This document shows, one piece after another, positions 38,899-55,007 of a stretch of DNA of 64,000 bases (positions are counted from its first letter, which is position 1; every line of letters starts with the position of its first letter). The stretch spans positions 1 to 64,000 of the forward strand of contig JACQZR010000147.1 of assembly GCA_016213775.1 (NCBI GenBank), in the 5' to 3' direction. A program made the position numbers and the translations under genes. Below the pieces are notes generated by a model. That model made no database searches. It saw only the letters and a program-made list of their open reading frames with translations, and was not told the DNA's origin. The DNA comes from Acidobacteriota bacterium (GTDB taxonomy: Bacteria; Acidobacteriota; Terriglobia; Bryobacterales; Bryobacteraceae).

Positions 38899-39357
38899 CT
38901 ACCGCCTCTTCGAACGCCGCCCCGCGGGCCCCGCGGACCGCACAGTCCTGGACTTCTCCTCTGAGGAGATATCGAGCAGAGTCGTCGATTCAAGGAACTC
39001 GAAGTAGGCCACCTTGGCAGGGCGCCATGCGTGGTGCGCGGTGCAGGGATCGTCGTCCGAGCAGGTCTGACGCAAGCCAAGAAGGCAGTCCCGTTTCCCG
39101 GTGTGCCGGTCGAACAGCTCGACTACCCGAATGAGCGGGATTTTCTGTGGCGGCCGGGCGAGGCGATAGCCACCTGCGGCCCCCCGGACGGCCTCCACAA
39201 TTCCGGCGTTGCCGAGAACTAGCAGTATCTTGGAGAGGTAGTTCTTCGGCACCCCCGTATTACGAGACAACTCCTGTCCGCCTAGCATTGAGTCGCGCGG
39301 TTGGGTCGCCAGGTATGAAAGCGCGCGCAACGCGTGTTGAGAAGTCACAGAGAGCAT
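38899..39357 (-). CDS. Rrf2-family regulator, NsrR/IscR-like with three conserved Cys
   Basis: 152-residue winged-helix regulator: MLSVTSQHALRALSYLA, then the recognition region VPKNYLSKILLVLG and GAAGGYRLARPP. C91, C99 and C105 (C-x7-C-x5-C) match the iron-sulfur ligand region of NsrR and IscR-type regulators, so a redox- or NO-sensitive [Fe-S] cluster is likely. The basic tail RSAGPAGRRSKRR is an extension. It is divergent from the Fe-S repair gene at 39627, a common NsrR-type pairing, which favours NO sensing. The last part of its sequence overlaps the decayed TIG fragment on the other strand. Confidence 0.88.
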   Translation of the reverse strand: MLSVTSQHALRALSYLATQPRDSMLGGQELSRNTGVPKNYLSKILLVLGNAGIVEAVRGAAGGYRLARPPQKIPLIRVVELFDRHTGKRDCLLGLRQTCSDDDPCTAHHAWRPAKVAYFEFLESTTLLDISSEEKSRTVRSAGPAGRRSKRR

Positions 39358-39512: not shown

Positions 39513-39526
39513 GTGACTTCGGTCAC
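39513..39526. promoter_or_regulatory. CRP/FNR-type palindrome in front of the Fe-S repair gene
   Basis: GTGACTTCGGTCAC is a perfect GTGA-N6-TCAC palindrome of the CRP/FNR superfamily type. A TAGTAT at 39550-39555 is a fair -10. The predicted transcript start near 39562 puts the palindrome centre (39519.5) at about -42, the classic class II activator position. The sequence is nearly the same as the site at 47960. Confidence 0.6.
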
Positions 39527-39626
39527 GGACAACGTACGACTCCCGGCATTAGTATTGCTCGGAGAATGCAACAGCGCATGCAACGATCCTCAAGCATCCC
39601 GTACGGGAACAGGAAGGAGAACGACG

Positions 39627-40337
39627 ATGACAACCACCACAACTCTGGCGGAAGTGGCCGCACTATCACTGACCGCCGTGCGCACGCTGGAGCGTCATGG
39701 CCTGGATTATTGCTGCGGCGGGAAACAGCCGTTCGACGAGGCGTGCCTGGCAAAGGGACTCAAGCCGGAAGCCGTATTGCAGGAGATCGAACAGGCGCCC
39801 GGGACCGGCGCGCCAGAGCGCAACTGGCAGACCGCTCCACTCGGTGAACTGACGAAGTACATCGTTGCCACTCACCACGAATACCTCAAGCTCGAACTGC
39901 CGGTTTTGGGCAAACGCCTGGAGAAGGTGCATGCGGTTCATGGCGCCCGCGATCCGGAGGCCCTCAGCCGTATGGTCGAGGTATTCGGCGCCTTGCGCGA
40001 CGAGATGGACTTGCACATGCACAAGGAAGAGGCCATTCTGTTTCCCTTCATAGAGAGATACGGACTCGCCGAGGCCCAGGGCCGTCCCATCCCCCCTGTG
40101 CCTTTCGGATCCATCGCGCACCCAATCGCCATGATGGAGCGAGAGCACGTGAGCGCAGGGGACGCGCTGTCGCAGCTCCGCGTGCTGACCCACGACTATC
40201 AACTGCCGCCGTATGCTTGTGACACAGTTCGTGCTCTATACAAGGGACTGGAGGCTCTGGAGGCAGACTTGCACGTGCATATCCATCTCGAGAACAACAT
40301 CCTCTTCCCGCGGGCGATCGCACTGGAAACACGCTAG
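39627..40337 (+). CDS. Iron-sulfur cluster repair di-iron protein (RIC; YtfE/ScdA/DnrN family)
   Basis: 236 residues from the ATG at 39627, which has an AGGAAGGAG site 7 nt before it; the frame extends upstream but without support. The N-terminal ScdA-type domain has RTLERHGLDYCCGGKQ with the characteristic Cys pair. The hemerythrin-like di-iron part follows with ATHHEYLKLELP, DLHMHKEEAILFPFI, MEREHVSAGD and LHVHIHLENNILFPR, supplying the His/Glu ligands. These proteins restore Fe-S clusters damaged by NO or oxidants in the cytoplasm. The gene is divergent from an NsrR-like regulator and preceded by a CRP/FNR-type site, which fits nitrosative-stress control. Confidence 0.95.
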   Translation: MTTTTTLAEVAALSLTAVRTLERHGLDYCCGGKQPFDEACLAKGLKPEAVLQEIEQAPGTGAPERNWQTAPLGELTKYIVATHHEYLKLELPVLGKRLEKVHAVHGARDPEALSRMVEVFGALRDEMDLHMHKEEAILFPFIERYGLAEAQGRPIPPVPFGSIAHPIAMMEREHVSAGDALSQLRVLTHDYQLPPYACDTVRALYKGLEALEADLHVHIHLENNILFPRAIALETR

Positions 40338-40382
40338 GAGCAACAAGTCAACCCGCGAAGACTGCTTCCGCTGGAGCAAGAC

Positions 40383-42443
40383 ATGCAATCGCCAGAAGGT
40401 TCGGTGCGACGGATATGTACGGGCTGGGCGGCCGTGCTCGCCAGAGTGGTGGCAGCGATTCTCCTGTTCGAGGCGATTTCGGGTCTCGCCATCGCGTTCG
40501 GCCCGTTTCACGCCGTCATCGAGTGGGGCCTGCTGGTGCACACGCTGGTCGGCGTGGTCACGCTCGCTCCGCTGGCTTGGTATTTCGTGCAACACTGGCG
40601 GGACTACTCCGGCCAGGCGCTGACGGACGTCCTGCTGCTCGGTTACACCGGCCTGATCGCACTGGCTGTTTGCGCGGTGTCAGGATTCATCGTCACGTGG
40701 CAAGGATTGCTGGGGACTCACACGTCTGCCGTGATGCGGTACATTCACCTGGTCTCGACTTTGACGGCGCTGGTTGCCACGGTTCCCCACATCCTGATTT
40801 CGTGGCTGCGCCGGCGCCGTGCCGGCTTTACGCGGCCCGCGGCAGGATGGCTCAGGCAGTCGGTTGCCGCCTGCGCCTGCGGTCTCGGCTTGACGGTCGT
40901 ACTCACTTTCGCCTACTCGGGAACGAAGTACCGGAACGAGTTCCCAAAGGACTACAATTTCCTCTACGGCAAAACCCGGCCGTTCGCGCCGAGCCTGGCG
41001 CGCACCTCAACAGGCGGCGCGTTCGATGCTCGGTCGCTGGCGGGTTCGGATACCTGCGGATCGAACGGCTGCCACGCACAAATCTACGAGGAATGGCGGC
41101 CCAGCGCTCACCGTTACGCGGCGATGGACCCAATCTTCCAAGGCATCCAGAACGTGATGGCGAAGCAGAATGGTCCGGAGTCGACGCGATATTGTGGAGG
41201 GTGCCACGACCCGATCTCCCTGTTTTCCGGGACCAAGAACATCTTTGTGGAGAAACTGACGGGCCTGGATGGTTACAACGAAGGGGTTTCGTGCGTCGCC
41301 TGCCACGCCATTCAGAAAACCGACATTCAGGGCAACGCGAACTATACGATCACGCAGCCGGGCGAATATCTTTGGCAATGGAGCCGCGAGGGAACGGCTG
41401 GCGCCATGGCTCGCAACTTTCTCATCCGCACCTGGCCGGCGCAGCACAATCGCCTCAGCAAACGCATGTACAAGAAGCCGGAGTACTGCGCGGCGTGCCA
41501 CAAGCAGTTCATCGACCAGGAGGTGAATCGCGTGGGCTGGGTGCAACTGCAGAACCAGTACGACAACTGGGCGGCGAGCCATTGGAACAAAAAAGGTGAC
41601 GCTCGCGCGACGGTGGAGTGCCGCGAGTGCCATATGCCACTGGTGGCTTCAACCGATCCCGCCGCGGGGGACTCGGCCGATTACAACCGCAGCGCCCACG
41701 ACCACAAACATCGCAGCCATCGCTTTCTGGCGGCCAACAACTTCGTTCCGGGACTCCTGCGACTGGACGGTGCGGAGAGACATCTGGAACTGACCAACCG
41801 CTGGCTGCGGGGGGAGTTCGACATTCCCGAAATCCGGGACAAGTGGGCCGAAGGGCCGGTGGTCAAACTCCGCATCGAGACCCCTGCCACCGTGGCTCCT
41901 GGACAGAAACTGGTGGTGCGCGTGATCCTGGTCTCCAACAAAGTCGGACATGACTATCCCACAGGGCCGCTCGACATGATCCAGAGTTGGGTGGAACTGC
42001 GGATCAAGGATGACCGGGGCCGGAACGTGTTCTCGTCCGGGCAGCGCGACGAGCGCAATTTCCTGGAGCCTGGCACGTTTCTATTTAAGGCCGAGCCTGT
42101 CGATCAATATGGCAATCTGATCGACCGTCACAACCTGTGGGAAATGGTCGGTGTGCGATACCGCAGATCTCTGTTCCCCGGTTATTCGGACACAGTCGAG
42201 TACAACGTGATCTGTCCTTCCGGTGGGCCGCGCCAGACCTCGCGAAACGCCCCCGCTGTGCGGGAGTTCCCAGTGCCGGAGGCGGCTCGGGGGACCTTGC
42301 ATGTCACCGCCACGCTGCGCTATCGCAAGATCGACCAATTCCTGCTGAATTACGTTCTGGGCGAGAAATCGGGCCTGACGGCGCCGGTGGCCGACATTGC
42401 GAGCGCGACCACGCGGGTGACGGTGACGTCGAAAGGAGAGTGA
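40383..42443 (+). CDS. Membrane multiheme cytochrome c with cytochrome-b-like N-terminal domain
   Basis: 686-residue protein. Residues about 15-185 hold five hydrophobic segments with His in or near them (WGLLVHTLVGV, YIHLVSTL, VPHILISW), suggesting b-type haems and quinol contact. The periplasmic part carries haem c motifs at C225 (CGSNGCH, an unusual C-x4-C-H), C271 (CGGCH), C304 (CVACH), C369 (CAACH) and C413 (CRECH). The text CHAQIYEEWRPSAH is typical of the cytochrome c554/c' domain. A beta-rich C-terminal third (about 480-686) follows. A role as a quinol-linked electron carrier or N-oxide/other reductase is inferred; the catalytic partner is unknown. The next gene starts 3 nt later. Confidence 0.85.
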   Translation: MQSPEGSVRRICTGWAAVLARVVAAILLFEAISGLAIAFGPFHAVIEWGLLVHTLVGVVTLAPLAWYFVQHWRDYSGQALTDVLLLGYTGLIALAVCAVSGFIVTWQGLLGTHTSAVMRYIHLVSTLTALVATVPHILISWLRRRRAGFTRPAAGWLRQSVAACACGLGLTVVLTFAYSGTKYRNEFPKDYNFLYGKTRPFAPSLARTSTGGAFDARSLAGSDTCGSNGCHAQIYEEWRPSAHRYAAMDPIFQGIQNVMAKQNGPESTRYCGGCHDPISLFSGTKNIFVEKLTGLDGYNEGVSCVACHAIQKTDIQGNANYTITQPGEYLWQWSREGTAGAMARNFLIRTWPAQHNRLSKRMYKKPEYCAACHKQFIDQEVNRVGWVQLQNQYDNWAASHWNKKGDARATVECRECHMPLVASTDPAAGDSADYNRSAHDHKHRSHRFLAANNFVPGLLRLDGAERHLELTNRWLRGEFDIPEIRDKWAEGPVVKLRIETPATVAPGQKLVVRVILVSNKVGHDYPTGPLDMIQSWVELRIKDDRGRNVFSSGQRDERNFLEPGTFLFKAEPVDQYGNLIDRHNLWEMVGVRYRRSLFPGYSDTVEYNVICPSGGPRQTSRNAPAVREFPVPEAARGTLHVTATLRYRKIDQFLLNYVLGEKSGLTAPVADIASATTRVTVTSKGE

Positions 42444-42446
42444 CGG

Positions 42447-45056
42447 ATGCAAGCGGGACCTCGCCCGCCTCTGTCGAGAAGACAGCGCCGCGTTTTGTGG
42501 ACGGCATCCACGCTAGCGGCGTTGACGCTGATCGCAGCTTTGCTCACGTGGCGAATTCAGCGCGAGCACGCACTTGAGCAGTACACTCCGGGCGAGGCCT
42601 CCACCGACGTCACCAGTACGATCAGCGATCGGGCGGCGCGCAAATCCACCTCCGTCCCAACTCGAATGGAAGTGACCTCACGGGCGGTTGACCCGTTGCG
42701 CGACGCCGGCCGGAAGCTTCCGCCGGGTGCGCCCGAGCCGCGATTCACTGACGTTACCAGGATGGCGGGCCTCGCCGCGTTCCGCCAGTTCCAGGGTCCG
42801 CGTACATCACAGTTACCTGAGGATATGGGATCGGGTGTCGCCTGGGGCGACTTTGATAACGACGGGTACGAAGATCTGTTTGTGGTGAGCGGCGGCGGCC
42901 CGTTGAGTGTCTCCACATCGCAACTGGCCCGCTCGCTGCTCTATCGCAATCGCGGCAATGGCAGTTTCGAGATAGTGCCGGAATTCCCCGATACACACGT
43001 TCGCGGTATGGCGGCTGCCTGGGGCGATTACAACAATGATGGCTGGCTGGATCTGCTGGTCACCGGCTTTGATGCCATCATTCTCTACCGCAACGATCGC
43101 GGCCGTCTGGGGCGCGACCAACGATTCACTTCACTCCAAGGTTTTTGGGCCGGCGCCGCGTGGGGCGACTACAACCGCGATGGCTACCTGGATCTGTATG
43201 TGTGCGGATATGTGAAGTACGTTCCGGGCAAGGGTGATGCCAGCCGCGGCACGCAACAGTTCGGCAAAGAAGTTCCCTTCACGTTGAATCCGGCGTCGTA
43301 TGAGCCCGAGCGCAATCTGCTGCTCCGGAACAACGGTGATGGCACGTTCACGGAAGTCGCGCGGAAAGCCGGTGTTGCGAATCCCGAGGGCCGCAGCCTG
43401 AGCGCGCTATGGCACGACTTCGATGGCGATGGATGGCTCGATCTCTACGTCGCCAACGACATCTCCGAAAACAAGCTGTACTTGAACCGCCAGGGGAAGT
43501 TCACAGATGCCGGGAGAAGCGCGTGGGTAGAGGAGTACCGCGGCTCGATGGGCCTGGCGGCGGGGGATTTCGATCGCGACGGTGATGACGACCTGGTCAT
43601 TTCGCATTGGATCGCGCAACAGTACGCGCTCTACCAGTCATTGCTCACCGAGCAGAAGCTGACTGGCGGCGTGAAGCAGGAACTGCACTTCACGGACGTG
43701 GCTGAGATGCTTGGGATCGGGCAGCCCTCGATGCAATCTATCGGATGGGGCGCCGTCTTCGCTGACTTCGACTCCGATGGCTGGCCGGATCTGATGGTGG
43801 CAAACGGAAGCACGTTCGAACGAAAGGAGACTTCTCCACGCATTCTGGCGCCGATGCCGTCGTTTCTCTTCTGGAACGCACGGGGGGAGTACTTCCACGA
43901 TCTGGCGCCCTGGAACCGCTCCCTCGCTGAGCCGCACGTCAGCCGCGGGCTCGCCATTGCCGATTTCGATAACGATGGTTCGATGGACGCCGCTATTGTC
44001 GACCATGGCGAGGGGGTGCGTTTGCTGCGCAACGATGTTCCCCATGGCAACTGGGTGGAGTTGCGTCTGCACAGCCGTGTGCCCAACAGCCGGACTCCGC
44101 TGGGGTTTGGTGATGGCGCAACAGTAATTGCGTGGATTGGCAACATCCCGCTGCGCCGCACTGTGACGAGCGCATCGTATCTGTCGCAAGACAGCCGCCG
44201 CGTGCACATCGGCCTGGGCTCGGCGACGAAGGTCGACCGGGTCGAGGTGCGATGGTTGGGCGGACGTCAGCAGACCTGGACGAATCTGGCTGCGAATCGC
44301 ATCTGGAGCATCACGCAGGGAGAGCAGGAAGCGCAGGTGTTTGCGCCGCCGGCGGTGGTCTCAGGGCTGGTGCGATTTTGGGAAACGCAGCGCGCAGCCA
44401 TGGATGCGATGAAGCGCGATCACGACTTTCCAAAGGCAGCGCGGCTTTTCCGGGAAGCGCTCTCGCTCAATGCCGGCCACGAAGATTCGCATTACTACCT
44501 GGCGAATTGCCTCGCCGCGATGGGGGATACCGGCGGCGCGGTCGCCGAACTGGACGCTCTCGTGGGAGTCAACGCGCAAAGCCATCGCGCCTTTCAACGC
44601 AAGGGCGAGCTACTGGCCGCGTCAGCCTCATCGCGCGCGCAACTGGAGGCGGCTCGCCGCTCCCTGGAGGTAGCGCTGCGACTCAACTCTGAAGAGACGG
44701 GCACGCTGCTGTTGCTGGGAGAAGTGGCGCTGGGAGCGGGTGACTTGAATGCTGCGGAACGGTACTTCACGCACGTCTGTCAGGCCAACTCGCGCGCCGC
44801 CAATGCCTGGTTCTTCCGTGGCTACATCGCGTGGAAGCGGAATGATCCTCGCCAGGCCACCGCAATGCTCTCGGCCGCGCGGGCTGCCGTCGGTCCCGAC
44901 TGGAAACCGGCGGGATCGGCCCTGGAAGGCGATGTGCGCCGTCGAATGTACAGCGAGTCGGGATTCCTTAGCGTGTTCGCCCAACAGTGGGATGGGGGGA
45001 TGACGCCGGAACGCGCCTACCAACGCCTGGAGCAATACTTGCGTCAGCTCCGCTGA
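42447..45056 (+). CDS. FG-GAP (VCBS) / ASPIC-UnbV / TPR protein
   Basis: 869 residues. One N-terminal membrane segment (VLWTASTLAALTLIAALLTW) anchors it. About seven FG-GAP-type units with calcium-binding loops follow (GDFDNDGYEDLFVV, GDYNNDGWLDLLVT, GDYNRDGYLDLYVC, HDFDGDGWLDLYVA, GDFDRDGDDDLVIS, ADFDSDGWPDLMVA, ADFDNDGSMDAAIV), enough for one seven-bladed propeller. An ASPIC/UnbV domain (VELRLHSRVPN, VRWLGGRQQTWTNL) comes next, then three to four TPR repeats near the end (ARLFREALSLNAGHEDSHY). The extracytoplasmic location suggests a scaffold for the multiheme cytochrome encoded immediately upstream; a good AAGGAGAG site overlaps that gene's stop. Confidence 0.88.
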   Translation: MQAGPRPPLSRRQRRVLWTASTLAALTLIAALLTWRIQREHALEQYTPGEASTDVTSTISDRAARKSTSVPTRMEVTSRAVDPLRDAGRKLPPGAPEPRFTDVTRMAGLAAFRQFQGPRTSQLPEDMGSGVAWGDFDNDGYEDLFVVSGGGPLSVSTSQLARSLLYRNRGNGSFEIVPEFPDTHVRGMAAAWGDYNNDGWLDLLVTGFDAIILYRNDRGRLGRDQRFTSLQGFWAGAAWGDYNRDGYLDLYVCGYVKYVPGKGDASRGTQQFGKEVPFTLNPASYEPERNLLLRNNGDGTFTEVARKAGVANPEGRSLSALWHDFDGDGWLDLYVANDISENKLYLNRQGKFTDAGRSAWVEEYRGSMGLAAGDFDRDGDDDLVISHWIAQQYALYQSLLTEQKLTGGVKQELHFTDVAEMLGIGQPSMQSIGWGAVFADFDSDGWPDLMVANGSTFERKETSPRILAPMPSFLFWNARGEYFHDLAPWNRSLAEPHVSRGLAIADFDNDGSMDAAIVDHGEGVRLLRNDVPHGNWVELRLHSRVPNSRTPLGFGDGATVIAWIGNIPLRRTVTSASYLSQDSRRVHIGLGSATKVDRVEVRWLGGRQQTWTNLAANRIWSITQGEQEAQVFAPPAVVSGLVRFWETQRAAMDAMKRDHDFPKAARLFREALSLNAGHEDSHYYLANCLAAMGDTGGAVAELDALVGVNAQSHRAFQRKGELLAASASSRAQLEAARRSLEVALRLNSEETGTLLLLGEVALGAGDLNAAERYFTHVCQANSRAANAWFFRGYIAWKRNDPRQATAMLSAARAAVGPDWKPAGSALEGDVRRRMYSESGFLSVFAQQWDGGMTPERAYQRLEQYLRQLR

Positions 45057-45095
45057 GGGTCGCGAAGACGGACCGGACCGCAGGACTCGCTGCCG

Positions 45096-45132
45096 TTACA
45101 CCGGGACGAGGACCGCGCGAACCATCGGGTTC
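45096..45132. repeat. Short hairpin-containing repeat, copy 1
   Basis: TTACACCGGGA, three variable bases and GGACCGC are followed by the hairpin GAACC-ATCG-GGTTC. It lies about 27 nt past the stop of the CBS-domain gene. A related copy is at 45888-45944, where the stem is GAGCC/GGCTC, so the difference is compensated in the pair. It could be a terminator-like element or a leftover of duplicated gene-end sequence. Confidence 0.4.
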
Positions 45133-45159
45133 CGCTGCGTAAGGCGCGCCCCTACTCGA

Positions 45160-45648
45160 TCATCCAGGGTATTTGCCCGCGATATAGCTGCTCAGTTGAT
45201 GAACCGTTTCCGCCTGTGCCGAGATGATCGTATTCACCAAATCGCCAATTGAAACTACGCCGGCTACTTGCCGTCCCTCCTTTACGGGCAGGTGGCGGAT
45301 GTGGTTGTGCGTCATCACTCTGAGGCACTCGTCGACACTATGGTGCGGAGCCACGAAAATCACTGGGCTGGTCATAATCTCTTCGACCAGTGTGTCAGTG
45401 GATGAGCGGCCCCGGAGAAATACCTTCCGGGCGTAGTCCCGCTCTGAAACGACACCAACCAGATCGCCATCGGTAACCACCATGAGGGCGCCAACGTGCT
45501 TTGCGTCCATGAGTGCTATCGCCTCATACACGGTAGCCCTCGCGGAAACGCACCAGACGTGACGGCCCTTTCGTTCGAGGATCGAGGCAACCGAGACCGC
45601 CTGCGCCGCACCCATCGCTTCATTCATGCAGACAGATTCGATATACAT
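45160..45648 (-). CDS. CBS-domain protein
   Basis: 162 residues from the ATG at 45648, chosen because AGGAGAAATCC precedes it. Two CBS domains: the first about residues 20-80 (VWCVSARATVYEAIALMDAK, VVTDGDLVGVVSERDYARK), the second about 90-145 (SPVIFVAPHHSVDECLRVM, HIRHLPVKEGRQVAGVVSIGDLV). Stand-alone CBS pairs bind adenine nucleotides and regulate partner proteins; the partner is unknown. A TATAAT at 45767-45762 on the minus strand would give a leader of about 105 nt. The gene sits between the respiratory genes and the nitronate-monooxygenase-like gene. Confidence 0.92.
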   Translation of the reverse strand: MYIESVCMNEAMGAAQAVSVASILERKGRHVWCVSARATVYEAIALMDAKHVGALMVVTDGDLVGVVSERDYARKVFLRGRSSTDTLVEEIMTSPVIFVAPHHSVDECLRVMTHNHIRHLPVKEGRQVAGVVSIGDLVNTIISAQAETVHQLSSYIAGKYPG

Positions 45649-45761
45649 GGATTTCTCCTGAACAATCTGTTGTTTCGGTCCGTTCTTCACAGTCCCGCTG
45701 GTAGATACAGCACCGGGCCCATCAGAGCCTCGGCCTCATTCAGAACCAAAGGCAATCAGCA

Positions 45762-45767
45762 ATTATA
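45762..45767 (-). promoter_or_regulatory. TATAAT -10 for the CBS-domain gene
   Basis: A perfect TATAAT on the minus strand, about 114 bp before the CBS-gene start. No -35 at standard spacing is clear (a TTGAAC lies only 11 bases upstream), so activator dependence is possible. Confidence 0.35.
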
Positions 45768-45887
45768 CCTTTGTTCATGTTCAACTCTATAATCATCACA
45801 CTCCGTTGTCAATCCGAAAGTGAGCCGGGCAGGGTCCCAACAAGGCCAGAAGGCGCCTTCACCGCGCACAGGAGGTGGAACACCGAA

Positions 45888-45944
45888 TTACACCGGGATT
45901 GGGACCGCAGAGCAACCGGGACGCCGTTCCGAGCCATCGGGCTC
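45888..45944. repeat. Short hairpin-containing repeat, copy 2
   Basis: TTACACCGGGA, three variable bases and GGACCGC, then about 20 extra bases, then GAGCC-ATCG-GGCTC. This copy forms the last codons and stop of the nitronate-monooxygenase-like gene. Compare copy 1 at 45096. Confidence 0.4.
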
Positions 45945-47384
45945 CGCCCAACGGGCCGGAGGGACTTCGCAGAGCAGCTTGGCGAGTACGTCCGCGGCGC
46001 TAAAGGCTAACCCGTCAGCCGGCAGAAAGAGGGTCAAGGTACTCAGGTCGTTGCCGGATGTGATGAGGCCCTTCTCCAGGTAGCCTCCGCCGCGCCGCTG
46101 GGGATGTCCGATGTTCGCCAGCAGCGCGTTGCAGAGGCACTTTCGGCCCGCGGTGTTTTCCGCGGCACCGCCTTTGGAGACGTAGGCGGTTACCGGCTCG
46201 GCGGCGCAACGGTACCCGATCGTGCCGTCCGGGGTTCTGTAGGCTTGGCGTAGATAGCCCAGATCGCAGACGCGAGGCCTGGCCAAATAGACCGTGGGAT
46301 CCGACAGCGAATCTTCCAACTGGACGACTTTGAATGGAAAATCCGTAGGAGATGCCACCGGATCAGTGAACACCCGCGCCTGCCCGCGACGAACGCTGTT
46401 CAGGATGGCATGCTTGTATTGGGCGCTGATTCCAGATTCCGTACAGAAGGCAAACGCCGTTCCCACCTGCACGCCGGCCGCTCCGGCCGCCAAGGCTTCG
46501 CGCAGCTTCTCGGGGCTACCATAGCCGCCCGCGAGCCAGAAAGGCAAATCCAGCTCCCGCAACTTCTGCAGGTCAACGCGGTCGCGCAACCCATACGCCG
46601 GTTCTCCTGCTTCATTGAGCGGCGGGTTACCGCGAGGCGGTGCGTTATGCCCCCCGGCCTCCGGCCCTTCAATCACGAACCCGTCCACCCTACCGTTGGA
46701 CTTCTTCTGCATCGTGGTAGCCAGGACGTTGGAGGCAACGATGGGGAGGAACTTGGGGCGTGTGAGCGGCGGATGATCGCGGTCCATGTAGTGCCGCGGC
46801 ACGAACGTCATGGTGCGATCGTCTCCCTCACATGCCCCATGGACTTGTAGTTCGTAGGTCGCCGGTTCATGCTTTGCCAGCCGATCGAGCACGCCGGGAA
46901 TCTTCAATGGGATGCCCGCTCCCATCAAGACGTAGCCGACCCCACCGAGCATGGCGCCATAGATCGAGGGGAGGTGGGGGATCTGGACCTTCTCCAGGTA
47001 GTTGATGCCCACCGGATAGGTATGGCCTTGGCGGGCGAGATACACCTCGACAAAATTCGCCGCGAGGCACAACTCCACCAGCTCAATGGAATTGTCTTTC
47101 GCGTGCAGGCGCAGCTTCCGGTAAGGGGCGCCAGCCGGTTTGCCGCCGGGAATGAAATACCGGCTCCAGACCCGCTCAGCGACTTCGGAGAACGGAAAGT
47201 GGTCCAAACCGAGGCGCATGTGCCCACCCGGATCGCCATCCTGTAGCCGTCTGGCGAAGATCTGATCGAGAGCTGTTCCGGAAACTACACCAAGTTGGCC
47301 GAGCCGCGAAACAGAACTGGCCAGCCGCCAATTGGAGACGCCGGCTCCCATACCACCCTGGATGACCGTGGGAAGCGTATTCAT
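45888..47384 (-). CDS. Nitronate monooxygenase / 2-nitropropane dioxygenase-like flavoprotein
   Basis: 498 residues from the ATG at 47384, where MNTLPTVIQGGMGAGVSNW is the typical family start; an upstream in-frame ATG at 47414 is less likely. The FMN-barrel motifs are VVSGTALDQIFARR, GYVLMGAGIPLKIPG, FVIEGPEAGGHNAPP with the likely catalytic His, and LAGGYGSPEKLREALAAGAA followed by VQVGTAFAF. It is longer than class I enzymes (about 320-360) because of an insertion and a C-terminal Cys-containing part (RKCLCNALLANIGH). This long version is seen as a stand-alone type in several phyla. It may detoxify nitronates or act as another FMN reductase; the NO-related context supports nitro chemistry. 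Confidence 0.88.
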   Translation of the reverse strand: MNTLPTVIQGGMGAGVSNWRLASSVSRLGQLGVVSGTALDQIFARRLQDGDPGGHMRLGLDHFPFSEVAERVWSRYFIPGGKPAGAPYRKLRLHAKDNSIELVELCLAANFVEVYLARQGHTYPVGINYLEKVQIPHLPSIYGAMLGGVGYVLMGAGIPLKIPGVLDRLAKHEPATYELQVHGACEGDDRTMTFVPRHYMDRDHPPLTRPKFLPIVASNVLATTMQKKSNGRVDGFVIEGPEAGGHNAPPRGNPPLNEAGEPAYGLRDRVDLQKLRELDLPFWLAGGYGSPEKLREALAAGAAGVQVGTAFAFCTESGISAQYKHAILNSVRRGQARVFTDPVASPTDFPFKVVQLEDSLSDPTVYLARPRVCDLGYLRQAYRTPDGTIGYRCAAEPVTAYVSKGGAAENTAGRKCLCNALLANIGHPQRRGGGYLEKGLITSGNDLSTLTLFLPADGLAFSAADVLAKLLCEVPPARWAEPDGSERRPGCSAVPIPV

Positions 47385-47409
47385 GTCTGATTCAATTGTT
47401 TCATGGCCC

Positions 47410-47425
47410 GACAATTGGAATTGTC
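47410..47425. promoter_or_regulatory. Perfect 16-bp palindrome before the nitronate-monooxygenase-like gene
   Basis: GACAATT-GG-AATTGTC has 7-bp arms and covers the last base pair of the hemerythrin stop region, 25 bp upstream of the flavoprotein start. A second CAATTG lies at 47393-47398. It could be an operator within the hemerythrin-flavoprotein unit or an RNA hairpin. Confidence 0.4.
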
Positions 47426-47906
47426 AGAGTTGCGTAATTTTCCTGCCATTCGTGCGCGATGGGACCGTCAGCTTCCGTATGGCGGCCCATTGTGCACCGA
47501 GGTCCTCCAGCAGTTCCAGGGAGAGCTCACGATCCGCGGTGGGGAAGATAATGTTCTCTTCTTTGCGGAAGTGCTTCCGGGTCATGGTGACAGTGTCCAT
47601 CAGCAGGCGGCGAGCCTCTTGCCCGTCACCAGCGTCGATCACGGATTGAAGGCCGATGGCGATGGCCTGATGGTCGGTTGGAGGAACAGCGCCATCCGGA
47701 CCAGGTGTGGGTTTCTCCAGATAGGGAAGGACCACCGGGCGGAGCAACGCATCCTCAATATCAGCGTGGCTGATGAGGGTGGCTTGCAGGAAGGCGGCTT
47801 GTAGCTTGAGTTCCATCAGGCCAGCCGAGGTTGCTGTCTGCTCGATCATGTCCAGCAGTGGGTACATTGCTCCGTGCTCGCCGAGTAGCGCCTGGGTGAT
47901 TTTCAC
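47424..47906 (-). CDS. Hemerythrin-domain protein
   Basis: 160-residue four-helix protein with His/Glu positions of a di-iron hemerythrin (HHE) domain: LLGEHGAMYPLLDMIE, ISHADIEDALLRPVV, DHQAIAIG and KHFRKEENIIFPTADREL. These proteins bind O2 or NO, or act in iron and redox sensing; this one is cytoplasmic. It is preceded by a CRP/FNR-type site at 47960 and followed after 39 bp by the nitronate-monooxygenase-like gene, so the two probably form an operon under nitrosative or anaerobic control. Confidence 0.9.
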   Translation of the reverse strand: MKITQALLGEHGAMYPLLDMIEQTATSAGLMELKLQAAFLQATLISHADIEDALLRPVVLPYLEKPTPGPDGAVPPTDHQAIAIGLQSVIDAGDGQEARRLLMDTVTMTRKHFRKEENIIFPTADRELSLELLEDLGAQWAAIRKLTVPSRTNGRKITQL

Positions 47907-47959
47907 AGTGTTGCTCCTTCCCCAATAAGTGATCCTAAAGCAGGACGGTTGACGGAGCA

Positions 47960-47973
47960 GTGACTTAGATCAC
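47960..47973. promoter_or_regulatory. CRP/FNR-type palindrome in front of the hemerythrin gene
   Basis: GTGACTTAGATCAC is a perfect GTGA-N6-TCAC palindrome. On the minus strand TAGGAT (47937-47932) fits a -10, giving a start near 47925 and placing the palindrome centre at about -41.5. This is the same architecture and almost the same sequence as the site at 39513. Confidence 0.6.
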
Positions 47974-48268: not shown

Positions 48269-49429
48269 TCAGTTGTGGTAGTGGAGGCTCTCGGCGAGCA
48301 TCGGGTCGCCCATGGGAACTGGTAAGGCTCGCCGCATGGCGCGAAGGAATATGAGAACGAACAGCGAGCAGGCACCGGTGAACGCACCGATTTCCCACAA
48401 GCCGAACCGCGGCGCGGACCCGCTCGACATGGGTTGTGTCATCAGGTAAATGTCCAGCCATCGGCCCAGTAACACGATCAGCGCCGCCTTGCCCAGGATC
48501 CCGGCATCGCGCTTGGTCCTGGTGGGTAAGAGCACCACAAACGGCACCACCCAGTTCAGCAGGAAGTTGAGGATGAACAGAGGCAGCCAGAAGCCATGCT
48601 GCCGTTGGACGTAATAGACGGTTTCTTCCGGTATGTTGGCGTACCAGACCAGCATGTACTGGCTGAACCAGATGTACATCCAGAACGTGCTGAAGGCGAA
48701 CAGAAGCTTGCCCAGATCGTGCAGGTGCTCCTGATTGACGAAGTCCCGCAATGGGCCTGCGCGCCGCATCCAGATGACCAGAAGGATCATAACCGCAAGG
48801 CCCGAGGAGAACATGCCGGCGAAGTTGTAGATACCGAAAATGGTGCTGTACCAATGCGGAGTCAGCGACATCAGCCAGTCGAAGCTGGCCAGCCAGAACG
48901 TGACGGCGAACACCACCAGGAACAGAATCGACGTCCGGGCATTCTTCTGAGTGTCCATGGCAGCCCGCGTCACATCCTGGAGCCGGGACCTGCGCACAAT
49001 CGCACGAGCGAACAGAAACCACAGGGTCAGATAGAGGGCCGCACGAGAGAGAAAAAAGGGCAGGTTCAGCCACATGGCCTGAAAACCGCCGTGCGCCTTT
49101 TCCGCTGTCCACGGATAAAGCGACGAGCCGAACAGGAAGACCGCGGCCAGAATGCCGGCCCCGTACGGCAGAATAGCAGTCATCGCCTCCGGCACCCGGC
49201 GGAACGCCACATGCCACGCGGCGCCCGCCGCATAATGCGTGGCCACGAAGAAAACCCCCGCCAGTCCCAGGCACACCAGAAAGTATCCGGCGAGCAGCAA
49301 GCTGCTCCAGGTGCGTTGCGGTGCCCACATCAGTCCCGCGGCCACGATAAGAGCGCCCGCCAGCGTGACGCCGCGCAGAAAACCGTTCAGGCCGACCGGC
49401 ATCTTGAAGTCCATCTCCGGGACGTTCAC
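48269..49429 (-). CDS. actF: Alternative complex III subunit ActF (NrfD/PsrC-like membrane protein)
   Basis: 386-residue integral membrane protein with about ten hydrophobic helices (GVTLAGALIVAAGLMW, LLLAGYFLVCLGLAGVFFV, FWLPLFILNFLLNWVVPFVV). It belongs to the NrfD-like quinol-interacting family that supplies ActC and ActF of alternative complex III, the quinol:electron-carrier oxidoreductase replacing bc1. The start is GTG at 49429, overlapping the ActE stop (GTGA), with GGGAGGTG as ribosome site. It is the last gene of the nar-act array; I see no ActG gene after it, and the next sequence is the non-coding stretch with a decayed amidotransferase piece. Confidence 0.93.
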   Translation of the reverse strand: MNVPEMDFKMPVGLNGFLRGVTLAGALIVAAGLMWAPQRTWSSLLLAGYFLVCLGLAGVFFVATHYAAGAAWHVAFRRVPEAMTAILPYGAGILAAVFLFGSSLYPWTAEKAHGGFQAMWLNLPFFLSRAALYLTLWFLFARAIVRRSRLQDVTRAAMDTQKNARTSILFLVVFAVTFWLASFDWLMSLTPHWYSTIFGIYNFAGMFSSGLAVMILLVIWMRRAGPLRDFVNQEHLHDLGKLLFAFSTFWMYIWFSQYMLVWYANIPEETVYYVQRQHGFWLPLFILNFLLNWVVPFVVLLPTRTKRDAGILGKAALIVLLGRWLDIYLMTQPMSSGSAPRFGLWEIGAFTGACSLFVLIFLRAMRRALPVPMGDPMLAESLHYHN

Positions 49430-50067
49430 TTCTTCACCTCCCGAGGCGCATTCGGTTGACCCGTTGTTTGCGGCGCAGCCGCTTCCTCATCCGCCGCCTG
49501 CGCTGCCAGTTGACTGCGCTGCAAAGACCGGACATAAAGGATGACCTTCCACCGATCCTCTGGGGCCACCTGCACCGCATAAGACGGCATGTTCTTCTGG
49601 CCGAAGGTTAGGATGTGGAACATTTGCCCGTCCTTCATCGCCAATGCTTTCTCGTTGAGGAAGGGCGGAGGCGCGGGATAGCCGTGCATGGCCACCGCGC
49701 CATCACCGCGGCCAGCGGCGCCATGGCACGGCACGCAAAAGGTTCGATACAGTGCGGCCCCGCGAACAAACACGTTGAGGTCTTCGACATTCAGCGGGTT
49801 CTTTAATTCCTCGCCGGCGCGCATTGCCTCTTCCGGAGTCGCCTCGTAGTCCAGGCTGCGAAATCCGCGGCGGATCGTGTGTGGAGGCGCTTCCTGACTC
49901 GTCTTTCCGTCGGCGAAATTAGGGTTGGCGTCAAAGGATCCGAACGAGATCGGATGCACCATGTTGGGAAGATACTCGGCGTTCGGCTTGCTGGGATCCG
50001 GACGAACCACGACGTTGCCGAAGGCGGTGAGCAGCAACAGGGCGGCGAGAATCAGATTGAATCGCAT
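49426..50067 (-). CDS. actE: Alternative complex III subunit ActE (monoheme cytochrome c)
   Basis: 213 residues with an N-terminal signal or anchor (MRFNLILAALLLLTAFGNVVV). There is one haem c motif, FCVPCHGAAGRGDG, and a later Met in KNMPSYAVQVAPEDRW as the axial ligand candidate. The C-terminal tail is Ala/Gln-rich. In alternative complex III it passes electrons out to a soluble carrier or terminal enzyme. It starts directly after the ActD stop. Confidence 0.93.
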   Translation of the reverse strand: MRFNLILAALLLLTAFGNVVVRPDPSKPNAEYLPNMVHPISFGSFDANPNFADGKTSQEAPPHTIRRGFRSLDYEATPEEAMRAGEELKNPLNVEDLNVFVRGAALYRTFCVPCHGAAGRGDGAVAMHGYPAPPPFLNEKALAMKDGQMFHILTFGQKNMPSYAVQVAPEDRWKVILYVRSLQRSQLAAQAADEEAAAPQTTGQPNAPREVKK

Positions 50068-50595
50068 TCAGCGCGCCTCCTCCACGCGTTCCAGCACTTC
50101 CACGGCATTGTGCCCTTCCAGCAGCCTGCGCGCCGCTGCTTTGTCAAAGGCTGCATCGGTCTGCTCCAGCACCAAAGCGAACCGGTCATTGGTGCTGCGC
50201 GGGTGAATCAACTGCTTACTGCGGCCGGGCACGAGACCGCTGACCGCAAAGAATGCCAGCACGGTGCTGATGCCGGCAAACAGCACCATTACTTCGAACG
50301 TGATCGGAACAAAGGCCGGAAGCGAATCCCACGGCTTGCCACCCACATTGATCGGCCAATCCGTGGCCGTGGTCCAATACTCGAACCAGACTTTCAGGGC
50401 GGCGCCCGACAGCCCCAGCAGAAAGCATACCCAAGGCAAGCGCGAGGGAGGCAGCCCCATCGCCTTATCCATTCCGTGCACGGCGTACGGTGCGTATACG
50501 TCCACAATCCGGTAGCCGCGTTCGCGCGCGGCCTTCGTCACATCGAGAATGTCGTGCTCGTCGGAAAACATGCCAATCAGCAGACGGCGGCTCAT
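50068..50595 (-). CDS. actD: Alternative complex III subunit ActD (DUF3341)
   Basis: 175 residues: MSRRLLIGMFSDEHDILDVT, YRIVDVYAPYAVHGMD, then two membrane helices (LPWVCFLLGLSGAALKVW, FVPITFEVMVLFAGISTVLAF). This is the standard DUF3341 layout of ActD. It overlaps ActC by four bases and touches ActE. Confidence 0.93.
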   Translation of the reverse strand: MSRRLLIGMFSDEHDILDVTKAARERGYRIVDVYAPYAVHGMDKAMGLPPSRLPWVCFLLGLSGAALKVWFEYWTTATDWPINVGGKPWDSLPAFVPITFEVMVLFAGISTVLAFFAVSGLVPGRSKQLIHPRSTNDRFALVLEQTDAAFDKAAARRLLEGHNAVEVLERVEEAR

Positions 50596-52004
50596 GCGAC
50601 CTCCTTTGTCTCGGCGGCCAGCGCGCCGTGGCGGGCCAGCACTCCTTTCACCTCGGCCATCGCGATCACCGGAAGGATCCGGCAGAAGATGAGAAAACAG
50701 GTGAAGAACAAGCCGAAGCTCCCGACAAGCGTGGCGATCTCAATTGCAGTCGGCGAGTAGTTGGCCCAGTTCGCGGGAAGGTAGTCGCGGTGCAGACTCG
50801 TGACGATGATCACGAACCGCTCGAACCACATCCCGACATTCACCAGAATGGAGATCACGAACACTGCCGGGATATTCGCGCGCACACGCCGGAACCAGAG
50901 CAACAGCGGAACAAGCACATTGCAGCTCACCATCGTCCAATAAGCCCATGCGAACGGTCCCATCGCACGGTTCAGGAAAACGAACTGCTCATACTGATTG
51001 CCGGAGTACTGCGCGGTGAAGAACTCGGTTCCATACGCCAGAGCCACGATGCCGCTGGTGACAATCACCAGCTTGCACATCACGTCGATGTGCCTTCCCG
51101 TAATGTAGTCCTCAAGGTGCATGACCTTCCGCGCGATGATCATCAGCGTGAGGACCATGGCCATCCCTGAGAAGATGGCCCCGGCGACAAAGTACGGCGG
51201 GAAGATCGTAGCATGCCAGCCCGGAATCACTGACGTCGCAAAGTCCCAGCTCACAATCGTGTGTACCGACACGACCAGTGGCGTGGCCAACCCCGCCAGC
51301 AGCAGATACACCACCTCGTATCGCTGCCAGGTCCGGTACGAGCCATTCCAGCCGAGGCTGAACCATCCGAAAATCCGTTTACGCAAGCCCGGCTGTGCAC
51401 GGTCACGAATCGTTGCCAGGTCGGGAATCAACCCCACATACCAGAAGGTCAGTGAGATCAGGAAGTAGGTCGAGATCGCAAACGCGTCCCAGGCCAATGG
51501 CGAGCGGAAGTTGATCCACAACGGCCCGCGGAAATTGGGATATGGGAAGATCCAGTAGGCAAGCCAGGGGCGCCCCATATGAATCACGGGGAACAGCCCG
51601 GCGCACATCACGGCGAACAGAGTCATCGCCTCGGCCGAGCGGTTGACCGAGGTTCGCCACCGCTGGCGGAAGAGAAACAGAATGGCCGAGATGAGCGTGC
51701 CGGCGTGGCCGATCCCGATCCAGAACACGAAATTAGTAATGTCGAAGGCCCAACCGACAGTCGTATTCAAACCCCAGGTGCCGATGCCGGTGGCAATCTG
51801 ATAGGAGACCGCGGCCACGCCAAGCACCAAAGCGGAAAGGGCCGCCAGAAACGCCAGCCACCAGAGCAACCCCGGGCGGCGTTCCATCGCCGAGCAGATG
51901 TCTTCGGTGACTTGCGAGAGACGCTTCTTGCCCGTGATCAAAGGCGGCCGCAAAAGAGGTGTTGGATCGGTTACGGCCGTGTTGGCCCCCACCACACTAG
52001 CCAT
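50592..52004 (-). CDS. actC: Alternative complex III subunit ActC (NrfD-like)
   Basis: 470-residue polytopic protein with about ten membrane helices (LLWWLAFLAALSALVLGVA, FVFWIGIGHAGTLISAILFL, AIFSGMAMVLTLMIIAR). It is the larger quinol-site NrfD-like subunit of alternative complex III, longer than ActF as is usual. The start at 52004 overlaps the ActB stop by 8 nt, and its stop overlaps ActD (ATGA). Confidence 0.94.
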   Translation of the reverse strand: MASVVGANTAVTDPTPLLRPPLITGKKRLSQVTEDICSAMERRPGLLWWLAFLAALSALVLGVAAVSYQIATGIGTWGLNTTVGWAFDITNFVFWIGIGHAGTLISAILFLFRQRWRTSVNRSAEAMTLFAVMCAGLFPVIHMGRPWLAYWIFPYPNFRGPLWINFRSPLAWDAFAISTYFLISLTFWYVGLIPDLATIRDRAQPGLRKRIFGWFSLGWNGSYRTWQRYEVVYLLLAGLATPLVVSVHTIVSWDFATSVIPGWHATIFPPYFVAGAIFSGMAMVLTLMIIARKVMHLEDYITGRHIDVMCKLVIVTSGIVALAYGTEFFTAQYSGNQYEQFVFLNRAMGPFAWAYWTMVSCNVLVPLLLWFRRVRANIPAVFVISILVNVGMWFERFVIIVTSLHRDYLPANWANYSPTAIEIATLVGSFGLFFTCFLIFCRILPVIAMAEVKGVLARHGALAAETKEVA

Positions 52005-54999
52005 GTCGGCTTCCTCCTTCGTTCGTCTCTCCCTGGCGCACCACCTTCAGGTAGCCCACCGAAGGCCTGACGTTGATCTCCTCCAGCACCCGATAGCGCC
52101 GCAGGCTGTTCATCCACTTTGAGAGCCGGCTGTTCGGATCGTTCCAATCGCCAAAGACGATGGCCTGCGCCGGACACGATTGCTGGCACGCCGTCTGGAT
52201 CTCGCCGTCGCGCAGCGCCCGTCGCTCCCTCTTGGCTTCGATCTTGGCGTCCTGAATACGTTGCACGCAGAAGGTGCATTTCTCCATGACACCGCGAGAG
52301 CGCACAGTCACATCGGGGTTCAGCACAAGGTTTGCCAGACGGTCTTCCCTCGCATATTCGAACCAGTTGAAGCGGCGGGCTTTGAACGCGCAGTTGTTGG
52401 CGCAGTAGCGGGTGCCGACGCAGCGGTTGTAGATCTGCTGATTCAGCCCTTCTTCGCTGTGGACCGTCGCCAGCACCGGGCACACCGTTTCGCAGGAAGC
52501 GTGTTCGCACTGCTGGCACATCATCGGCTGGTGAGCCACCTGAGGCGCGGTGGGATCTCCCGAGTAATAGCGATCCAGGCGCAGCCAGTGCATCTCACGG
52601 TTTCGAATCACTTCGTCCTTGCCGACCACGGGAATGTTGTTCTCCACCTGGCAGGCCACAACGCAGGCTGAGCATCCCGTGCATGCGCTGAGATCCACCG
52701 CCAGGGCCCAGCGGTGTCCGGTAAAAGGATGGTCGCGCGGCCAGAGATCTTCTTCGCTCTTGTCGGCGGCAGTCTCTCTTCGGACGTTGCTCAACTCCAC
52801 AAGCCGCGTTTCCTGCACAATGGGGCGGCTGCCTCCCCCGGGATCGAGATGCTTCGGGACCGACAATGTATGGTGATTCTGCGTAAGCGCGAGCGGGTGC
52901 AGCTTGCCCGTATCGGTCAGGCGCAAGTCGGACCGCCAGTAGCGCAGCGCTCCGTCCTCGAAGCGGAGGAACGAACTTGCATTCCCCCCCACCAAACCCT
53001 TCTCGCCCAACGACGGCCTCCGGAATAGCCACCCCGGACCAACTCCGGCAAACCGTGCCGACTCTTTTCTTCCGTAGCCGAGGGCTACCGCGATCACCTT
53101 CTCGTGTTGCCCGGGCTGAAGCAGCGCCGGCAGTTCGAGCGAATGGCCACCCGCTTCGAGCCGCACGACATCGCCTTCCTTTACCTTCAGCCGTTCGGCA
53201 GTCGACGGAGCCAGGCACGCATAATTGTCCCAGGTGCATTTGCTCACCGGATCGGGCAGTTCCTGGAGCCAGGGGTTGTAGGCATGACGGCCATCGGGTA
53301 TCGACGGTTTGGAGTACAGCACCAGGGTGAGATCTTGAGCCGGCGTGGGCGTGAGCGGCCGCACTGCCTTGACATCGAATGGCTTCACGGCGGTGTTTTG
53401 GGGACGGACCGCGGCGACGCCGTCGTGCAACGATTTCCGCCAGAAAGCTTCAAAGTCTTCCTTGCCTGTGGACCTGGGGTGGATTTCGCGCTTCCACGTC
53501 GTCCGCACCAGATCATACGCGGCGCTCTGGCCACCGGCCCACCGCGCCAGCGTTTCCACGGCCGGCCGCGTCTGTGCCAGCGTCTGAACGGCGGGCTGCA
53601 TCAGACTTGCAATGCCGCTCACCGCCTCGGTATCGCCCCAGCTCTCGAGCGGATCGCTGTCCGGGCAGACATATGTAGCCACGCTCGCAGTCTCATCGAG
53701 CCGTGGCGACAGGCTCACCAGCAGCGGTACCCGCCTCAACACGTCACCTCCTGGCAAGTCCGCCAAGGGATTCACGCCGGGTACGACCAATGCGGCTACC
53801 TTCCCCCCCGCGATCTCTTCGAGAAGGCGCGCCACAGCACGATCATCGCCCTGCCGCTGGCGCGACGGAGCCTCGACATCGAGTGTTGTGCCGTAGTTCC
53901 CCAGCAGGTGATTCAGATAATTGCACAACACCTGCGCTCCCGTATCGGCGAGACCGCACACCACCAGGCTTCGCCCGCGCGCCGATACCAGCCGCTCGGC
54001 GAGCTCGTCCAGCTCCTTGGTGGCCAGGGCCACGGGGGCATCCTTCGCCCAGTCCGCCGCTGCACCTGTCCTCCGCGCCACACGCAGAGCCAGTTGCTCG
54101 ATCACCTGGGGGACTTCGCCGGGAGAGAGCCGATAGCGCCGGTCCGCTTTGCTGCCCGTCACCGACATCCGCGACTCCAGTTGCGTGTGATGTGACATCC
54201 GTGGCGGCTTGGCATCGGGCTGCCGTCCGGCACTGTAGCTTTGGGTGAATTCCACTGGCGAAATCCACGTTCCCAGGAAATCGGCGTCGAAGCTGACGAT
54301 CACCTCCGCTTTGTCGAAGCGATATCGCGGCAAGATCCGTGCGCCGTGCGTCAGTTGATGAGATTCGAGGATGGGAGATGCGGATTGGGGATCGCAAACG
54401 ATATGCTGCGCGTTTGGGAAGCTCTGCACAAACCCCCGGACCACCGCGTTCAGCGTCGGACTGGCGATGGTCGCGGTGAGAATGCGGACTGCGCGCTTCT
54501 CTTTCCGGATTCTATCGAACTGCGCTGCGATCTCCGCGTCCACTTCGTCCCACCTGGCTTCCTTGCCGTGACGCAAAGGCTGCTTCAAGCGAAGACCGTC
54601 GTAAAGGCTGAGAATAGATGCCTGGCCCACGGCGCAGAGGCCGCCTCGCGATAGCGGATGCTCCGCATTGCCCTCGAGCTTGATCGGCCGGCCGTCGCGC
54701 GTCTTGGTGAGCAAGCCGCATCCGGCCGGACAACCGCTACACGTCGAGGCGTAATAATAGGGGCGGCCGGGCGACATTCCTTCCACCTGGCGCAATAACG
54801 GAATCGCCTTTTCCACCGGTGCCTGCCGGCATCCGCTGAGCGTCGCGCCTGCAAAGGCGAACCCCGCCGCCTTGAGAAAGCCGCGCCGGTCAGGCCCGGC
54901 TGTGATGCGAAGTGGGGTGTCTTCGAATTCGGTCTCCGCACGGGCGCGGATCTCCGGGCCGCCTTCGAACTCCTCGATGCTCTTCCAATACGTCATCAT
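51997..54999 (-). CDS. actB: Alternative complex III subunit ActB (molybdopterin-like plus Fe-S protein)
   Basis: 1000 residues from the ATG at 54999, which follows TAGGAGACAGA. The twin-arginine signal is DRRGFLKAAGFAFAGATLSG. The N-terminal two-thirds is a molybdopterin-oxidoreductase-like fold that in this family carries no molybdenum (STCSGCPAGCGLLTKTRDG at its start). The C-terminal ferredoxin part, from about 730, has CTGCSACVVACQVENN, CQQCEHASCETVCP, CVGTRYCANNCAF, KCTFCVQRIQDAK and CQQSCPAQAI, enough for four clusters. In some species this subunit is split; here it is one chain. It lies on the periplasmic side and passes electrons to ActA and ActE. Confidence 0.95.
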   Translation of the reverse strand: MMTYWKSIEEFEGGPEIRARAETEFEDTPLRITAGPDRRGFLKAAGFAFAGATLSGCRQAPVEKAIPLLRQVEGMSPGRPYYYASTCSGCPAGCGLLTKTRDGRPIKLEGNAEHPLSRGGLCAVGQASILSLYDGLRLKQPLRHGKEARWDEVDAEIAAQFDRIRKEKRAVRILTATIASPTLNAVVRGFVQSFPNAQHIVCDPQSASPILESHQLTHGARILPRYRFDKAEVIVSFDADFLGTWISPVEFTQSYSAGRQPDAKPPRMSHHTQLESRMSVTGSKADRRYRLSPGEVPQVIEQLALRVARRTGAAADWAKDAPVALATKELDELAERLVSARGRSLVVCGLADTGAQVLCNYLNHLLGNYGTTLDVEAPSRQRQGDDRAVARLLEEIAGGKVAALVVPGVNPLADLPGGDVLRRVPLLVSLSPRLDETASVATYVCPDSDPLESWGDTEAVSGIASLMQPAVQTLAQTRPAVETLARWAGGQSAAYDLVRTTWKREIHPRSTGKEDFEAFWRKSLHDGVAAVRPQNTAVKPFDVKAVRPLTPTPAQDLTLVLYSKPSIPDGRHAYNPWLQELPDPVSKCTWDNYACLAPSTAERLKVKEGDVVRLEAGGHSLELPALLQPGQHEKVIAVALGYGRKESARFAGVGPGWLFRRPSLGEKGLVGGNASSFLRFEDGALRYWRSDLRLTDTGKLHPLALTQNHHTLSVPKHLDPGGGSRPIVQETRLVELSNVRRETAADKSEEDLWPRDHPFTGHRWALAVDLSACTGCSACVVACQVENNIPVVGKDEVIRNREMHWLRLDRYYSGDPTAPQVAHQPMMCQQCEHASCETVCPVLATVHSEEGLNQQIYNRCVGTRYCANNCAFKARRFNWFEYAREDRLANLVLNPDVTVRSRGVMEKCTFCVQRIQDAKIEAKRERRALRDGEIQTACQQSCPAQAIVFGDWNDPNSRLSKWMNSLRRYRVLEEINVRPSVGYLKVVRQGETNEGGSRHG

Positions 55000-55007
55000 T
55001 CTGTCTC

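Follow-up and report, generated by a model that had tools for sequence, protein, structure and literature searches.

Two copies of a CRP/FNR-type box, GTGAC-N4-GTCAC, lie in a 64,000-nucleotide stretch of DNA from an Acidobacteriota bacterium (the window: positions 1–64000 of a 131 kb contig, C49, in a genome of 10.96 Mb, G000). One box is upstream of a gene for an iron–sulfur cluster repair di-iron protein (RIC) and the other is upstream of a gene for a hemerythrin-domain protein. Our analysis makes it likely that both are operators of a CRP/FNR-family regulator, encoded on another contig of the genome (C268), that switches on a regulon for defence against nitric oxide (NO) and nitrite. By computation we observed the box, the constant distance between it and a −10 element, the conservation of the box, its occurrence at genes for RIC, hemerythrin, quinol NO reductase (qNOR) and NrfH, and a match and covariation between the recognition helix of the regulator and the letters of the box.

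Two boxes and their promoters

The two boxes and the promoter elements that go with them are as follows.

39513–39526, plus strand: predicted operator of the RIC group, GTGAC-N4-GTCAC, GTGACTTCGGTCAC (from the sequence; conserved at RIC loci of the family)
39550–39555, plus strand: predicted −10 element TAGTAT, 23 bases past the box (from the sequence; geometry kept at boxed RIC loci)
47960–47973, minus strand: predicted hemerythrin operator, GTGACTTAGATCAC on the plus strand and GTGATCTAAGTCAC in the minus-strand reading (from the sequence and close orthologues)
47932–47937, minus strand: predicted −10 element TAGGAT, 22 bases past the box (from the sequence)

The original prediction had placed both boxes and both −10 elements at these positions with spacings of 23 and 22, and we confirmed all of them. 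It had also counted two differences between the boxes, both in the spacer, which holds only for the plus-strand reading with a six-base spacer. The hemerythrin gene lies on the minus strand; in its direction the box reads GTGATCTAAGTCAC, and the two gene-wise readings differ at four positions, including one within a half-site. Nor do the boxes bracket one region as a single transcription unit; they start two separate, convergent gene groups, which run from 39627 to 45056 on the plus strand and from 47906 to 45888 on the minus strand.

Agreement of the two sites had been called unlikely by chance. For the box alone this is weak evidence: allowing up to two mismatches, the window contains 39 boxes, a number reached in 14 of 100 shuffles, whose mean was 32.19. 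For the box together with the −10 geometry the claim stands, as a box with at most one mismatch followed by TANNNT at 22 or 23 bases occurs twice in the window, compared with 0.01 times on average in 200 simulations of a first-order Markov model. That the two boxes are alike by chance in a GC-rich window would fit the abundance of box-like sites (39 compared with 32 expected) and the single one of the 200 simulations that also reached two, but it is contradicted by the conservation upstream of orthologues and by the spacing peak described below, and we give it almost no credence.

Conservation of the box and its spacing

A search for RIC in 61 genomes of the family listed 51 matches in 37 genomes, from which 30 loci were fetched and counted. 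The original prediction had named missing conservation upstream of orthologous genes as its refutation; we found a box with at most one mismatch upstream of RIC in 27 of the 30 loci, 57–119 bases before the start of the match, and a box upstream of two of the three close hemerythrin orthologues. When the RIC upstream regions were shuffled (500 mononucleotide shuffles), the number of boxed loci among the 30 averaged 0.15 and never exceeded 2, and the remainder of these loci had boxes with at most one mismatch at 9 of 93,512 positions. TANNNT followed at 22 or 23 bases in 18 of the 27 boxed loci (the three unboxed loci were left out of this count), compared with 3 of 1,215 at other positions. 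In one of the unboxed loci (L048), RIC lies directly downstream of a 4Fe–4S gene that bears the box and the −10 element. The two boxed hemerythrin orthologues (the three close ones share 49–55% identity) both have a −10 element at 22 or 23, and four remoter hemerythrin matches (27–34% identity) showed no box.

We also looked for a GTGAC-type box within 300 bases upstream of RIC in 80 named loci, one of which (L207) had just one upstream base present. It was found in 17 of 25 loci with acidobacterial titles, among which we take the Geothrix and Polarisedimenticola records to be acidobacteria, and in 1 of the 55 others (L163, a planctomycete).

We then pooled 278 oriented sites from this genome and from loci of its relatives, most of which had been picked for their target genes, with palindromes counted both ways. 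TANNNT occurred 50 times at a spacing of 22 and 26 times at 23; over the range 5 to 49, no other spacing had more than five. In the 76 sites with this geometry, the inner C and G are conserved, the outer T of TGTGA is present in 27, and the promoter side of the box is followed by W and then G (G in 55 of the 76). The downstream half-site is frequently GTCAT, so that the box is asymmetric on its promoter side, and this asymmetry may be a partial −35 contact. One identical box sequence occurs three times in the genome (C121:31572, C122:3388 and C192:47); with two of the copies near a contig end, it perhaps lies inside a repeated element.

The C268 regulator might instead be a repressor, which would cover the −35 position and depart upon NO or nitrite. 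The box does end at or overlap the −35 position, and the W–G that follows it looks like a piece of a TTGAC −35 element lying at the normal distance from the −10. However, a repressor would tolerate more positions than the fixed spacing of 22 or 23 found over unrelated targets, which fits an activator that touches RNA polymerase, and a good TTGACA −35 element was not seen. We consider repression unlikely.

A candidate regulator outside the window

The original prediction had called for a CRP/FNR-family gene with a matching recognition helix, and such a gene is present on contig C268 (12052–12735), outside the window. Candidates were drawn from seven PF13545 matches in the genome, two of which, on C268 and C215, have CRP/FNR architecture as judged by reading their sequences. 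The C268 protein (PF13545, 66.8 bits; cut-off 27) is the only one of the two with R-E-x-x-S-R in its recognition helix, and the full-length best PDB matches of the regulator are CRP/FNR proteins. An AlphaFold model of an orthologue (L206) had a mean pLDDT of 90.4 and a pTM of 0.65. The regulator falls in the CRP/FNR superfamily, which is marked by a beta-roll of the cyclic-nucleotide type, a long dimer helix and an HTH of the Crp type. In its own genome the regulator gene sits between a box that it has in common with a second hemerythrin gene (hemerythrin 2) and a box that precedes a cupin gene. Of 30 regulator loci, about 12 have a box directly after the regulator gene, ahead of the next gene.

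Orthologues of the regulator (at least 119 bits) are present in 40 of the 61 genomes. Of the 31 genomes whose RIC is near full-length, 29 have one, compared with 11 of the 30 others (Fisher test, p=2.4e-6; a RIC genome here is one with a match of at least 170 bits, and six whose matches are partial or weak count among the others). Of the 29 genomes that have both genes, 11 have them within 5 kb of each other.

R189, E190 and R194 are invariant in all 28 aligned orthologues (28 of the 30 fetched loci; L077 and L089 were left out), and in alignments R189/E190 fall on the R-E of CRP-type recognition helices. In the recognition code given in an excerpt of PMC1274295, R180 pairs with G3 and E181 with A6 of the site. 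Near RIC, an R-E helix goes with a GTGAC-type box in 17 of 18 distinct loci; L171 has the helix and no box. Two Ignavibacteria have P-E or I-E in the helix, and their boxes are TTGACTTAAGTCAA or TTGATTTAAATCAA, in which TTGA (TTGAC, TTGAT) replaces GTGA. This comparison covers loci with a recognisable helix, which the weak CRP matches L160, L193, L208 and L209 do not have; the sites of L050 and L033, which recur in L067 and L070, were counted once. This covariation of helix and box is the strongest link between protein and box; it turns on two exceptions that are perhaps not independent.

The box might also be read by the second CRP-like protein, on C215, or by some other regulator with no PF13545 match. 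C215 encodes a CRP/FNR-type protein too, and four genomes have boxed genes and no close C268 orthologue. The C215 helix, however, reads R-E-T-T-S-S and is missing the second R, a helix that disfavours this protein as the reader, and it is C268-type genes that adjoin RIC and boxes. We regard a reader of this kind as very unlikely.

Another candidate reader is encoded in the window, next to RIC.

38899–39357, minus strand: Rrf2-family regulator, divergent from RIC (PF02082, 104 bits; TIGR00738, over cut-off)

Such an NsrR-like protein could bind the box and keep both gene groups repressed as long as its Fe–S cluster is not damaged by NO. Its gene adjoins RIC in the window and follows RIC in another genome (G003, L040), and all 12 genomes with a close orthologue (at least 47% identity) have RIC. 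In G027 (L253), two boxes lie upstream of the Rrf2 gene, so that it may itself be a target. On the other hand, a close orthologue is absent from 17 of the 27 boxed RIC genomes, several Rrf2 loci have no box, and the letters of the box covary with the CRP/FNR helix instead. The published NsrR motif, gATGyAT-N5-ATrCATc in an excerpt of PMC1274295, is unlike the box. At four Rrf2 promoters (L253, L255, L257 and L258) we saw, by eye, another palindrome near the start, TTCTTCATGAAGAA-like, through which the Rrf2 protein may control its own gene. On its distribution, its own different palindrome and the helix–box covariation we rejected the Rrf2 protein as the reader, and we judge this reading highly unlikely. 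The Rrf2 protein has three cysteines, CX7CX4C, like Fe–S-binding Rrf2 regulators. An NsrR-like element just 3′ of the RIC −10 (39563–39582), a candidate picked by eye, was not evident in L032–L035 and was dropped.

Other genes under the box

Further targets had been expected at hcp, nor, nir or cytochrome promoters, and in this genome qNOR and nrfH are boxed. The box of its qNOR gene is GTGACTAAAGTCAT, followed after 22 bases by TAGTCT. Across the family, where 34 qNOR matches were listed and 30 loci were counted, qNOR has a box within 300 bases in 22 loci, 13 of them with TANNNT at 22 or 23. Among 17 full matches to nrfH (TIGR03153, over cut-off), six are boxed, five with a −10 element at 22 or 23, including the one in this genome; a partial match (L234) is boxed as well. 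In five loci (L220, L222, L223, L225 and L234), nrfH shares its box with a divergent gene for an alginate-export-type porin, in most cases with a −10 element at 22 or 23 on both sides, and bidirectional activation from one operator is possible. Among the other boxed neighbours are genes for a radical SAM protein (TIGR04053) and for a NapH-like 4Fe–4S protein.

The hcp part of the expectation was not borne out. hcp scored over the cut-off in one of the 61 genomes (G058) and not in the genome under study, and the hcp gene of G058 has no box within 1,500 bases upstream; we therefore rejected hcp as a target.

Sites with a −10 element at 22 or 23 in this genome precede RIC (RIC 1), the hemerythrin gene of the window (hemerythrin 1), hemerythrin 2 beside the regulator, nrfH and qNOR. 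The box of a second RIC gene (RIC 2) has one mismatch and is followed by a poor −10 element, and the cupin gene has a box and a weak −10 element. The start codons of nrfH on C243 and of hemerythrin 2 and the cupin gene on C268 lie about 6–8 bases past the predicted −10 elements, which suggests that these transcripts are leaderless or nearly so.

Several observations weigh against a single regulon read by the C268 protein. Members of the family are related, so that the counts overstate independence. Two RIC loci (L045 and L046) have no box although the regulator is present in their genomes, the third close hemerythrin orthologue (L109) has none, and nrfH is unboxed in 11 of the 17 good matches. 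qNOR is unboxed in 8 of 30 loci; in three of these genomes (G018, G035 and G045) it follows RIC on the same strand, about 1.4 kb downstream, and may be transcribed from the RIC promoter. In the genome under study, TANNNT stands at 22 or 23 for five of 51 box-like sites examined, one of which (C77) precedes no recognised gene. Finally, the four genomes with boxed genes and no close regulator orthologue are G038 (RIC), G057 (qNOR and the 4Fe–4S gene before RIC), G015 and G051 (qNOR in both), and G051 has no regulator match whatever. In these four there may be another reader, an idle box or a missed gene.

Gene layout of the window

The remaining genes of the two groups are listed here.

39627–40337, plus strand: RIC, iron–sulfur cluster repair di-iron protein (TIGR03652, 231 bits; cut-off 204.7)
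40383–42443, plus strand: membrane multihaem cytochrome c with four CXXCH motifs (PF13435; CXXCH count; homologues in L039 and L041)
42447–45056, plus strand: FG-GAP/ASPIC-UnbV/TPR protein (domain matches)
45888–47414, minus strand: nitronate-monooxygenase-like protein (PF03060, 71 bits)
47424–47906, minus strand: hemerythrin-domain protein (PF01814, 49.7 bits; cut-off 25.3)

The nearest named matches of RIC are from a 'Candidatus Solibacter' metagenome-assembled genome and two further acidobacterial ones, with 69–71% identity, and the genome is Solibacter-like. The multihaem cytochrome gene, which starts after a 45-base gap, probably belongs to the RIC operon, although the homologue in L041 is divergent from RIC. 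Judged by gene spacing, the FG-GAP/ASPIC-UnbV/TPR gene is probably part of the same operon, and the nitronate-monooxygenase-like gene is probably the second gene of the hemerythrin operon. A homologue of the latter, 72–73% identical, lies beside hemerythrin and RIC in G033 (L109 and L037).

Both NO-related gene groups adjoin a nitrate respiration island (48269–63397), which comprises an alternative complex III cluster as well as narGHJI and narK. Contig C49 from 62500 to 68962, a stretch that takes in the region upstream of the nar genes, showed no box at up to two mismatches, and narGHJI was accordingly dropped as a target. A second Rrf2 gene lies upstream of the nar operon, at contig position 64266–64703, barely beyond the window.

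Proposed mechanism and sensing

The suggestion that one activator controls both ends of the region is supported in the form of one regulator of a larger regulon; its binding and activation, as well as the signal and the extent of the operons, are what we infer. A box centred at −41.5 or −42.5 is the geometry of class II activation for CRP/FNR proteins. A dimer of the regulator would bind GTGAC-N4-GTCAC with its centre about 41.5–42.5 bases upstream of the presumed transcription start, and the bound protein, overlapping the −35 position, would recruit RNA polymerase in this class II manner. The most likely signal would be NO or nitrite, because of the targets.

How the regulator might sense such a signal can be narrowed by its sensor domain. 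In cAMP-CRP, Arg and Ser/Thr hold the phosphate of cAMP. The C268 regulator reads GPYPAS/GPYPAT where mycobacterial CRP and GlxR read GPRTSS, so that a cAMP-type pocket is not found. The 28 aligned orthologues have no N-terminal cysteine cluster of the kind that holds the [4Fe–4S] cluster of FNR, and their only invariant cysteines are C50 and C119; among more distant homologues, L189 is without C50 and L175 is without both. HcpR and DNR sense NO by means of haem; here no invariant His or Met of the sensor domain is among the listed invariant columns, although haem ligands vary between families. It is possible, though rather unlikely, that an NO regulon widespread in Acidobacteriota is run by an undescribed CRP/FNR subfamily with no FNR-type Fe–S cluster and perhaps no haem, which would sense NO through, for example, C50 and C119.

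Acidobacteria are abundant in soil. Reads of acidobacterial qNOR are relatively abundant in metagenomes and metatranscriptomes of two soils, according to an excerpt of PMC8692524, and part of PMC5900883 reports NO reductase homologues in acidobacterial strains that do not have dissimilatory nitrate or nitrite reductases. Among the matches listed from the open-licence PMC literature we found no regulator of an acidobacterial NO response, and the literal box strings had no match in that literature. With an operator, a promoter geometry and a candidate regulator, acidobacterial NO defence becomes testable and its regulon can be read from genomes. The acidobacterial box and helix also allow the R180/E181 recognition code to be checked independently.

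Relation to known systems

The RIC gene invites comparison with NsrR, since RIC-type genes are common NsrR targets. NsrR belongs to the Rrf2 family, and an Rrf2 gene does lie next to RIC, but the operator here is GTGAC-N4-GTCAC and the distribution differs. In the portion of PMC1274295 concerned, dnrN/ytfE is among the NsrR targets.

cAMP-CRP and GlxR share with the regulator the fold and the R-E recognition helix. They differ in the cAMP pocket, whose GPRTSS is replaced here, and in their targets, which here concern NO and not carbon sources. A search with the family profile scored GlxR and mycobacterial CRP at 128.7 bits compared with 98.8 bits for DNR, while in a single-sequence search DNR reached 76.0 bits compared with 77.4 for the best PDB matches.

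Like the regulator, DNR of Pseudomonas aeruginosa and NnrR have the CRP/FNR fold without the FNR cysteines and an NO reductase among their targets. Sites of the DNR type start with TTGA, whereas those described here start with GTGA.

The comparison with HcpR extends to the recognition helix. Desulfovibrio HcpR and HcpR1, the latter described in Desulfovibrio desulfuricans (PMC5701242), have R, E and R at helix positions 1, 2 and 6 and sites with a GTGA-N6-TCAC core, in the excerpts of PMC1274295 (Rodionov et al. 2005) and PMC5701242. The same excerpts include nrfHA in the Geobacter and Desulfuromonas regulons and hemerythrin-like genes among the predicted members. Relative to the HcpR site wTGTGAnnnnnnTCACAw, the GTGA..TCAC core and the R-E helix are present here, with the outer T in only 27 of 76 sites. 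HcpR controls hcp, its main target, and frdX; here hcp was neither found in this genome nor boxed in the sole one of 61 genomes where it scored over the cut-off. HcpR of Porphyromonas ranked 18 by Foldseek and 22 by VIA-align, inside a tied range. The kind of system is already known from the CRP/FNR regulons for NO (HcpR, DNR and NnrR), and the proposed acidobacterial regulon would be a new member of it.

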